This document shows positions 15,591 through 50,107 of a DNA stretch of 50,108 nt, piece by piece. The stretch is from positions 1-50,108 of the IMG/VR virus record IMGVR_UViG_3300023223_000822, one strand, 5' to 3'. The notes beneath the pieces were generated by a model that did no database searches, was not told the origin of the DNA, and saw only the letters and a list, made by a program, of their open reading frames with translations. The position numbers and the translations under genes were made by a program. Origin of the DNA: a virus. The stretch's first letter is position 1, and every line of letters starts with the position of its first letter.

Positions 15591-15638
15591 CTACAGCTTA
15601 TAGTCTTTTGGACCTCAAGGTGGTCTTTTTATTCCTTG

Positions 15639-16771: not shown

Positions 16772-17422
16772 CTACGCGAAGTAATCGAATGACTTTTTTC
16801 TCAGCTGAACCAACTCTGCCAACTTCTCCGCTTTCTTACCATGCAGGGGGATCATTTCCTGGAATCGAAGAATTTCCTTCCCCGGGATCTGTATTCTCCA
16901 TATTCCGTCTGCACCATTCTTCATTCGCCGTTTGTACGGATAAAAGTTCAGCGAATTAAGTAGGAAGATCGTGTCCTCCGCCAGTTGGTCCGACACCGTG
17001 TAGTATCGGACGGCCCTACTCATATAACCTCTTTTATCCACCCCTCCAGCAATAGTGCCATCTGTGTCCCACATTCCCGCTAGTAGGGAGGCTCTCTGGT
17101 CGACAGTACCCTCAAACACTCCGCGAGGGAGGCTCTTCGTGTGGGAGTTGGCTCGTGCGAAACCTAAATCCGAAAGGTAATGGTGGTGTCGTCGAGGCCA
17201 AGTCACTACCCATATCTGTTCGGACTGCTCGTGATTACGAAAGTTTGCCTTCATCCCCAGATCGTGGAAGCATAATCTTACAAGTTCCTGATACTGCCAC
17301 TGCCCTGCTAGTCTGATCTGAGGGCCGGCAGTCCAAGACCCATCGCCGACATAAAAGCCGGCGAGGTAATACTGAGAATCGAGATCGAAACTAAGCAAAA
17401 TCCAGAGACTTTTCGCGAACAA
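16772..17422 (-). CDS. LAGLIDADG homing endonuclease
   Basis: Up to 216 aa with both motifs: LAGFYVGDG (residues 20-28) and LLAGMWDTDG (113-122), so a monomeric two-domain enzyme that cuts a long DNA target. The start is uncertain: TTG 17422 overlaps the sigma-like gene by 32 nt, and TTG 17398 is an alternative. It appears free-standing, with an apparently complete gene on each side, rather than inside an obvious intron or intein. Likely a selfish insertion that spreads by cutting phages lacking it. Confidence 0.9.
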   Translation of the reverse strand: MFAKSLWILLSFDLDSQYYLAGFYVGDGSWTAGPQIRLAGQWQYQELVRLCFHDLGMKANFRNHEQSEQIWVVTWPRRHHHYLSDLGFARANSHTKSLPRGVFEGTVDQRASLLAGMWDTDGTIAGGVDKRGYMSRAVRYYTVSDQLAEDTIFLLNSLNFYPYKRRMKNGADGIWRIQIPGKEILRFQEMIPLHGKKAEKLAELVQLRKKSFDYFA

Positions 17423-18023
17423 AGCCCAACCAGTTGTGAATTGTGCTTGTGGTCACCCCGAATTTCTCACTCAGGAATTCGACATCCGGGCCGACATCAA
17501 GAATAGTTTCCAACATCGGAGAGATGGAGCGATCCCGCTTGCTCTTCGGTTTCGCCGCCAAATTCTCGGCCCAACCTAACAAGTGGCCAAATATCTCAGC
17601 CCTTTCGACTGTCAGTTCAATATCTTGCTGGCCATCTTCTTCCAAAATCCGATCCAGTTGGTAGGTTCCTACCACGAATTCGTCTTCCTCGCTGGTCTCC
17701 TGGATCGAACCTCCCCGGAGTTCCCCGAGAGGATTCCGGCTGTTCTTGCTCAGGTAGTTGACACAGATGGTTCGGGTCACGAAGAAGATGACCCCGCCGA
17801 AATTGGCTTTCTCGGGATTGAAGACCTTCAGCATATCCTTTTCCATGCAGCGGACGAAGGCGTCATTTACCAGGGTATCCCATTCTTCGGTATGACCGAA
17901 GGGGACAAAGTGACGAACTAGTTTGTGGGCCAAGGACGGGGCGTACTCATCCGTCATGTAGTAACGGTAGAGATCGTCGTAATCCTTGGGTACGTAATTA
18001 TTATCCGGTGTCAGGGTGGTCAT
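17391..18023 (-). CDS. Sigma-70-family-like transcription factor
   Basis: 210 aa. Residues 44-95 (TEEWDTLVNDAFVRCMEKDM, KANFGGVIFFVTRTICVNYL) follow ECF sigma region 2. The C-terminus (VEFLSEKFGVTTSTIHNWLG) is a helix-turn-helix in the region 4 position. The acidic linker is long. The protein ends right after the helix-turn-helix, at the edge of the homing endonuclease gene, so loss of a few C-terminal residues cannot be excluded. It is first in its transcript, behind a promoter with two CRP-type sites, and could redirect host RNA polymerase to later genes. Confidence 0.65.
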   Translation of the reverse strand: MTTLTPDNNYVPKDYDDLYRYYMTDEYAPSLAHKLVRHFVPFGHTEEWDTLVNDAFVRCMEKDMLKVFNPEKANFGGVIFFVTRTICVNYLSKNSRNPLGELRGGSIQETSEEDEFVVGTYQLDRILEEDGQQDIELTVERAEIFGHLLGWAENLAAKPKSKRDRSISPMLETILDVGPDVEFLSEKFGVTTSTIHNWLGFVREKSLDFA

Positions 18024-18055: not shown

Positions 18056-18084
18056 ATTATAGCACATTTTGCATCCGAAGTCAA
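18056..18084 (-). promoter_or_regulatory. Sigma70-type promoter of the sigma-like gene
   Basis: TTGACT (18084-18079), 17-bp spacer, TATAAT (18061-18056) with extended TGC. Predicted start is near 18049. The leader ends GACGAGGA plus 7 nt plus ATG 18023. Two CRP-type operators lie upstream, centred near -60.5 and -100.5 by this estimate. Confidence 0.9.
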
Positions 18085-18101
18085 CATCTAGTTTCTTGTT
18101 T

Positions 18102-18117
18102 TGTGACGTAGATCACA
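18102..18117 (-). promoter_or_regulatory. CRP-type operator, proximal
   Basis: TGTGA-CGTAGA-TCACA, a perfect match to the two CRP half sites. On the coding strand the longer context AATGTGATCTACGTCACA differs from the ideal CRP site at only two central bases. Its centre is about 60-61 bp upstream of the predicted start, the classic class I activation position. Confidence 0.75.
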
Positions 18118-18141
18118 TTCTGTCGATGGCAATCCCCATTT

Positions 18142-18157
18142 TGTGACAAAGATCACA
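18142..18157 (-). promoter_or_regulatory. CRP-type operator, distal
   Basis: TGTGA-CAAAGA-TCACA, again perfect half sites, placed exactly 40 bp from the proximal site (same helix face). It overlaps the stop codon of the delta-like gene. The flanks TTTTGTGAC and AGATCACA are shared with the proximal site. Confidence 0.7.
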
Positions 18158-19037
18158 ATCTCTTCATACCGACTCCAGAATTGGCTACCAAAAGGGTCAA
18201 GGCTGCCTCTGGATGGCTCATGGCCATCCGATCTAGGTAAACCAGTCTCCTAGCCACAACCTCAAGATCATCTCCGTTCCACATCCTAGCCGATTCTTCA
18301 GTCTCCTCTAACCTTCGGTACCCCAGGGCAAGCTCTTTCCCTATTCTCTGGGGATCATTCCCCATCTGGTAGAGAGCCTTGAAATGGACAATCTCCGTCA
18401 ACCGAATTATCACCCGCCTCCAAGCAACGTCAAACCCAATCGTCCTGGCCACCAACAACAGTTCCTTGTGCTTTCCCCTCATGAACAAGGACATCAAATT
18501 ACCTTCGTAGGACTCCTGCAGGTAGTCCGCCACATTCTCCTCGTCCCAGCCAAGGATCTTCGCCCTTCTCAGGACTGGTTCAAAATCCTCCGGCTCCATG
18601 TCCCAGTCTAGTTTCAGCAGTCCTCTCAAGCCTAAGCTGGACCCCATCTGGCCTATCAGTACCTTCAAGACATCTCTTTTCACCCGGTACCTGGCTCCAA
18701 GCTTGGTGCTCAGTTCCCCTTCATCCGTTTCCGCCAGAACATAAGTCTCGGTCGGAATAGCCAGGCCACTCACGAACCTCTTGTTGAATCCCTCCAAAAC
18801 GTAAAGTACCACCCCAGAGTCGAAGATGCTGTGTTCTTCTATTCGACCTTTCGTTTCGTTCACTACATCCTTGCTGTAGGTGACAAAGTGGATTCTCGCC
18901 TTGATCTTCTTCCGGTACGCTCGGACTAGTAGATAGAACTGGTACTTCGAAGACTTACCTCGAGATACCGTCATCTTGTGGGGAAAGGCGCCCGTGTGAT
19001 TCTCCAACCAGAATAAGACTGACCCTTCCTCACTCAA
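18153..19037 (-). CDS. Clamp-loader delta-subunit-like protein
   Basis: 294 aa, TTG start overlapping the upstream TGA (TTGA). The C-terminal third (VIIRLTEIVHFKALYQMGND, LGYRRLEETEESARMWN, DDLEVVARRLVYLDRM) follows the collar domain of DNA polymerase III delta. No Walker A is visible, as expected for delta. It follows a delta'-like gene. Together they could load a host or phage clamp; no clamp gene is seen here. The stop codon overlaps a CRP-type site of the next promoter. Confidence 0.6.
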   Translation of the reverse strand: MSEEGSVLFWLENHTGAFPHKMTVSRGKSSKYQFYLLVRAYRKKIKARIHFVTYSKDVVNETKGRIEEHSIFDSGVVLYVLEGFNKRFVSGLAIPTETYVLAETDEGELSTKLGARYRVKRDVLKVLIGQMGSSLGLRGLLKLDWDMEPEDFEPVLRRAKILGWDEENVADYLQESYEGNLMSLFMRGKHKELLLVARTIGFDVAWRRVIIRLTEIVHFKALYQMGNDPQRIGKELALGYRRLEETEESARMWNGDDLEVVARRLVYLDRMAMSHPEAALTLLVANSGVGMKRL

Positions 19038-24717: not shown

Positions 24718-24900
24718 CCCTAGGCTTATAGTCTTTATGATCTTGAAAAGGGCTTTTAATTCCAGCTGGGTGAACGGCTAGTAACTTGAGCTTTCACCTT
24801 CTCCCATCTCGCCAAACCCCAACCGCAATAGGATCAGTGCTCGGTGAATAAGAGCTACCTGTTATAGGTTAGGTCTCTACTGCGGCAGAGCCCAAACTGC
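24718..24900 (-). other. Intergenic region after the polymerase gene
   Basis: 183 nt with no frame of note. After the polymerase stop the transcript can fold as GGCAG-8 nt-CTGCC (24883-24900 region). Further on, GGTGAA, then GCT, a loop and AGC, pairs with TTCACC (about 24767-24796). No T-run is seen, so a terminator is possible but not evident. The last 20 nt hold the shared 13-nt upstream promoter element. Confidence 0.5.
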
Positions 24901-49447: not shown

Positions 49448-50107
49448 CTATAAGCCCGCCTCTACTATATCGATCACCAGCACTGCTGATGTCGTCGCGT
49501 CCCTCACCGCGGTAAACTCTAACGGGAGAAGGACATCATCGTTTCCACCCTCTGCAGTAGGGTTGCCATCTGAGAAAAAGAGCTTCGGAATCGTGAACTC
49601 CATCACATTTCCGGTCGAACCGTCCCCGTCCGTGAACCTAAATCTCAGACTCGAAGACGTGTGGTTGATGAACTTCCGGTACAAGGCCATGTCTTGGAAA
49701 TAAGCCGTCACCGTACCGGTCACATCTACAAACCCGTAACCCACGTCAATAGGCGACTTAGATCCAATCTGAGGCTTCACCCGCAAGTTGTTTCCGATCT
49801 CCAGTTCAATGGACTGGAGTGCCGTTGTCAATGCAACACCAGCCTCTTCGATTGTCCCTAGATTTGTTGTACCGTTCAGTGGGTCGTTAACCGTTGAAGG
49901 AACAGTCTGGCCGGATCTTGATGCGGTCGGATCAACATCAAGGAGTGCTTCCTTTCCGTTAATCGTAAAGGCTCCATTCACGATCGATCCAGATTCCGCG
50001 GTAAAGGTCATCGTCGCGCCGCGGAGTCCGTTAAACCCCAGGTACTCTACGATATCCGAGAAAAACTTTTCCAGGACCAGGGACTTCCGCCCATTTCCGT
50101 TCTTCAA
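49448..50107 (-). CDS. Major tail (tube) protein, 5' end cut by the window
   Basis: 219 aa visible and open to the window edge, so the N-terminus is probably missing. Beta-rich with the tail-tube pattern: MTFTAESGSIVNGAFTINGK, IELEIGNNLRVKPQIGSKSP, FVDVTGTVTAYFQDMALYRK, FTIPKLFFSDGN, VLLPLEFTAVRD. It lies immediately upstream of the G/GT chaperones, the normal order in siphoviruses. It should polymerise around the tape measure protein. Confidence 0.85.
   Translation of the reverse strand: MKNGNGRKSLVLEKFFSDIVEYLGFNGLRGATMTFTAESGSIVNGAFTINGKEALLDVDPTASRSGQTVPSTVNDPLNGTTNLGTIEEAGVALTTALQSIELEIGNNLRVKPQIGSKSPIDVGYGFVDVTGTVTAYFQDMALYRKFINHTSSSLRFRFTDGDGSTGNVMEFTIPKLFFSDGNPTAEGGNDDVLLPLEFTAVRDATTSAVLVIDIVEAGL

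Follow-up and report, generated by a model that had tools for sequence, protein, structure and literature searches.

Genes at the locus

The window, i.e., the whole stretch of DNA that was analysed, covers a virus record of 50,108 bases encoding a DNA polymerase A, a DnaB-like helicase, a ligase, clamp-loader-like and CobS/CobT-like proteins, and siphovirus-like tail proteins. At the record end, positions 1–121 consist of a tandem array of the 11-bp unit CCTCCGTTAGT with a 33-bp higher-order period (98% matches). The locus of interest lies on the minus strand and comprises, in the direction of transcription, a gene at 18153–19037, two CRP-type operators, a sigma-70 type promoter, a gene for a sigma-like protein (17391–18023) and a LAGLIDADG homing-endonuclease-like gene (16772–17422; PF14528, E = 2.7e-13). 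The latter is located directly 3′ of the sigma gene and overlaps its end; in one relative (L001), a ligase gene directly follows instead. The gene upstream of the operators possibly encodes a clamp-loader subunit, as suggested by a weak holA match in a relative (L002; E = 0.029). Its product was conserved almost to the C-terminal residues in two relatives, and a single-sequence search of viral contigs with this protein returned no relatives.

The product of 17391–18023 (210 aa) was assigned, from a family model and its fold, as a divergent ECF-like protein of the sigma-70 type. Residues 30–199, including both halves, matched TIGR02937 with E = 9.6e-5, and the homologous proteins of two relatives matched it with E-values of 3e-4 and 9e-6. 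The scores were below the curated cut-offs (22.1 vs. 42.9 bits for TIGR02937 and 17.2 vs. 21.1 for PF07638), as were the TIGR02937 matches of the two relatives' proteins, and the protein is therefore called sigma-like rather than a family member by sequence. The predicted structure was of modest confidence (pLDDT 69), and its best PDB matches were sigma factors in initiation complexes (Foldseek, probability 1.00), including Mycobacterium initiation-complex factors, E. coli sigma-E, and AlgU. Region 2 alone aligned with region 2 of E. coli sigma-E at 2.9 Å, and the predicted model contained the sigma region 2 and region 4 folds in that order. The gene downstream of the promoter had been described as sigma-like in the initial annotation, and the family (TIGR02937) and fold (Foldseek) evidence bore this out: in the model, the product is sigma-like by fold and domain order. 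It resembles ECF/sigma-70 and phage sigma factors in having a region 2-like half followed by a region 4-like half and in its fold matches, but differs from them in falling below the curated sequence cut-offs. Close relatives were detected only in two IMG/VR contigs; none were found in cultured phages or in genome contigs.

The promoter and the operator pair

The sigma gene is preceded by a sigma-70 type promoter, TTGACT-N17-TATAAT (18056–18084, minus strand), which matches the consensus at 11 of 12 positions and carries a TG ahead of the −10 element (TGC TATAAT; extended −10). The transcription start was assigned to A18049, 7 nt past the −10 element; this position is inferred, as are the distances counted from it. 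Three further sigma-70 promoters with an extended −10 element were found on the minus strand of the window (28005–27977, 24717–24689, and 15590–15562). Each matched the consensus at 12 of 12 positions; the sigma-gene promoter is the only one of the four with an imperfect −35 element. Two of the perfect promoters share an identical 12-mer, AAGACTATAAGC, that abuts the −35 element (15596–15607 and 24724–24735, minus strand) and is a possible shared upstream element. The promoters follow a house style of the phage group, TTGACA-N14-TGNTATAAT; in a 118-kb relative (G002), TTGACN-N14-TGNTATAAT occurred exactly 16 times. No house-style promoters were located within the tail-gene region of the window, an absence that would fit a phage sigma factor serving the late genes.

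Read along the minus strand from 18157 to 18049, the region consists of the distal operator TGTGATCTTTGTCACA (18142–18157), 24 nt, the proximal operator TGTGATCTACGTCACA (18102–18117), 17 nt, TTGACT, 17 nt, and TATAAT. Both operators are perfect TGTGA-N6-TCACA palindromes, as first annotated, and are the sole zero-mismatch matches in the 50,108 bases; both also contain the longer E. coli-type half TGTGATCT. Their separation of exactly 40 bp, start to start, was likewise confirmed, and with A18049 taken as +1, the annotated centres of −60.5 and −100.5 were reproduced. The 40-bp spacing had additionally been equated with about four helical turns; the spacing stands, and at 10.5 bp per turn it corresponds to 3.8 turns. 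The proximal site is thus an exact consensus site with its centre near the class I distance of −61.5. The stop codon of the upstream gene (18153–18155) falls within the distal operator.

Chance was excluded as the origin of the pair. A first-order Markov estimate put the expectation per window at 0.049 for single sites and at 5e-6 for pairs no more than 100 bp apart. With a symmetric 22-bp CRP matrix, which approximates the E. coli consensus, the pair scored 20.8 and 20.3, whereas no score in 40 simulated windows exceeded 15.9. Similarity between the two copies is confined to the operator core and a few adjoining bases (23 nt at 87% identity); because the 40 bp are not shared in full, the pair is no simple recent 40-bp duplication. 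A third high-scoring CRP-like sequence (49589–49610, score 18.5) occurs in a coding ORF and, as a probable chance match, was left out of account. As initially annotated, the other three promoters of the window have no CRP-like site: the best scores in the 130 nt upstream of them were 1.1–2.5, vs. 21.2 at the sigma gene.

Occurrence in relatives and in other viral contigs

The two IMG/VR contigs with a sigma homologue (48% and 44% protein identity) have a similar arrangement, in that a homologue of the 18153–19037 gene adjoins the sigma gene upstream and a TTGACA promoter with an extended −10 element precedes it. No CRP-like sites were detected in the 300 nt before their sigma genes (best scores 2.8 and 2.6). 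Conservation of both sites in related phages, which had been put forward as a check on their function, was thus not found: they were absent from two of two sigma-carrying relatives with intact promoters. Since the sites have no counterpart in either relative, they are lineage-specific; as the sigma proteins are merely 44–48% identical, their absence indicates lineage specificity rather than refuting a function. Two further relatives, recognised by their DNA polymerase, gave no sigma match and were uninformative, since each contig breaks off close to the polymerase gene. Across the 25 house-style promoters of the group (4 in the window and 21 in relatives), the sigma promoter of the window was the only one with CRP-like sites (21.2; next best 7.0). 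One CRP-type site in the 118-kb relative lies inside a 517-aa ORF and was taken as chance.

The combination of operator and promoter was scanned for in 2.9 million viral contigs with the pattern TGTGA-N6-TCACA, 15–20 nt, TTGACN, 16–18 nt, TATAAT. This yielded 14 further stretches (two of them, L011 and L023, being the same sequence), whereas a composition-matched control palindrome in the same pattern yielded none, from which it follows that phages do use the class I CRP-type architecture. Judged by this pattern, the architecture genuinely occurs in viral contigs, though seldom, and the window is not its only instance. Most of the 14 stretches directly precede an ORF, coding for, e.g., an anti-restriction protein, an amidoligase, or a terminase small subunit, and two, distinct from L011 and L023, are tandem, another perfect site being located 33 or 42 bp further upstream. 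The 48-kb contig IMGVR_UViG_3300045051_000520 (L022, L015) has three class I CRP-type promoters, to which every one of its three perfect CRP-type sites belongs, and may carry a phage CRP regulon. The exact 40-bp pair was found at five loci in viral contigs, several of them with arrays of motif repeats, and none of the five was a relative of the window locus. A wider tandem scan requiring only a −35 element gave two extra loci, which were discarded as they had no clear −10 element. In a 9.6-kb viral contig (L003), six TGTGA-N6-TCACA palindromes resembling TGTGAAAAAWTTCACA are clustered within 300 bp (positions 472–771), suggesting an array of operators or iterons.

Possible control by a host CRP-type protein

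No CRP-family protein was detected among those encoded in the phage record, so the candidate reader of the operators is a host protein. The tRNA-Tyr of the phage resembles those of Erwinia, Edwardsiella, Serratia, and Burkholderia phages, and a tail protein is distantly related to tail proteins of Pseudomonas, Vibrio, and Xanthomonas phages. Identities were low in both cases; together, these resemblances hint at a host among the Proteobacteria, in which CRP-type proteins with TGTGA-N6-TCACA specificity are common. A search of genome contigs with a DNA polymerase profile returned no relatives.

We consider it reasonably likely that a host protein of the CRP, Vfr, or Clp type binds the tandem sites in class I fashion and boosts transcription of the sigma gene. 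Both operators would be occupied by the cAMP-CRP of the host or by an orthologous protein (e.g., Vfr or Clp). With RNA polymerase positioned on the extended −10 promoter, the C-terminal domain of its alpha subunit would be contacted by the dimer at about −60.5, and a synergistic contribution would come from the second dimer, 40 bp upstream. High cAMP in the host would then lead to more transcription of the ECF-like sigma gene. The binding protein, the binding itself, and the sign and size of its effect are inferred.

The geometry can be compared with known CRP systems. At lac, the class I CRP site is located at −61.5 (PMC6728893). The candidate sites in the window share with lac-type class I promoters the operator core, a centre at about −60.5, and a sigma-70 type promoter just downstream; unlike at these promoters, the gene is a phage gene, the core promoter is near consensus rather than weak, and a second site lies 40 bp upstream. 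Busby et al. (1994, as cited in PMC4595672) are reported to have obtained the best synergy between tandem CRP sites when 40 or 50 bp separated the upstream site from the downstream one; in the case treated in the citing article the downstream site is class II, so this source supports the tandem spacing by analogy. The Vibrio tfoX promoter likewise has a pair of CRP-type sites upstream of it, separated by about 40 bp (43 bp between centres), but these lie at −84.5 and −41.5 (class I plus class II) as opposed to −60.5 and −100.5 here. Direct control of phage promoters by host CRP is known from phage T1, where it takes the form of repression (PMC6737242). T1 pir resembles the predicted situation in being a phage transcription-regulator gene under host cAMP-CRP, but in T1 the outcome is repression and pir controls prophage induction, whereas for the sigma-like gene the prediction is activation.

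The class I control proposed in the initial annotation thus agrees with published CRP systems in operator position and tandem spacing. Its claim that the host protein would switch on the sigma gene is probably too strong, because the promoter (11/12 with an extended −10 element) is near consensus unaided. With little room left for activation, modest stimulation by CRP is to be expected, and a boosting role is more likely than an on/off one. The points counted in favour of the boosting mechanism were the scores excluding chance, the class I distance, the restriction of the sites to 1 of 25 promoters, the imperfect −35 element found in this promoter alone of the four, the 14 vs. 0 stretches, the tandem spacing, the failure to detect a CRP-family protein in the phage record, and the precedent of host-CRP control in T1; those counted against it were the strong promoter, the lack of the sites in two relatives, the repression in T1, and the 3.8 turns.

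The strength of the promoter also bears on a rival account, in which host CRP does bind, with a negligible or even negative effect: an over-stabilised polymerase would be delayed in promoter escape, and sigma synthesis would be lowered or delayed in starved cells. An effect of this kind would be in line with the extended −10 element and 11/12 match, with the three site-less sister promoters, which are presumed to be active unaided, and with CRP repression of the T1 pir, dam, and recE promoters (PMC6737242). We regard it as unlikely, since the sites are at an activating class I distance and clear of the −35 and −10 elements, and their spacing is one at which tandem synergy was reported to be strongest. 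It is less likely still that the operators serve another dimeric regulator with the same half-site, i.e., either some other host member of the CRP/FNR family or a phage protein that escaped recognition. In other phyla, CRP-family members (e.g., of the GlxR type) use TGTGA half-sites as well, and several proteins of the window have no family match; against this, both copies contain the longer E. coli-type half, and the phage has no detectable CRP-type domain. That the two palindromes are a product of chance or have a non-regulatory role, e.g., as RNA hairpins ending the upstream gene, is very improbable: the distal copy does overlap the stop codon and each copy could form a 6–7 bp hairpin, but two perfect 10-base matches so spaced have a tiny probability, and the hairpin or terminator reading was rejected on account of ordinary folding energies (z = −0.3 and −1.0) and the absence of a T-run.

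Biological implications

Overall, the interpretation given in the initial annotation is plausible, unproven, and somewhat overstated. In its broadest form, which we put forward tentatively and with less confidence than the boosting mechanism itself, a phage of lytic type would have placed its own ECF-like sigma gene behind a tandem class I element and so enlisted the carbon-status regulator of its host as activator. The sigma-dependent programme of the phage would then rise and fall with host cAMP, and the same device would have evolved repeatedly in other phages, at other genes. The survey of viral contigs provides a list of promoters with the same geometry, with three of them on one contig. 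If the interpretation is true, a phage regulatory cascade would be wired to the nutritional state of the host via a textbook activator and not via a phage sensor, and whether the carbon status of the host paces the phage programme would become directly testable.
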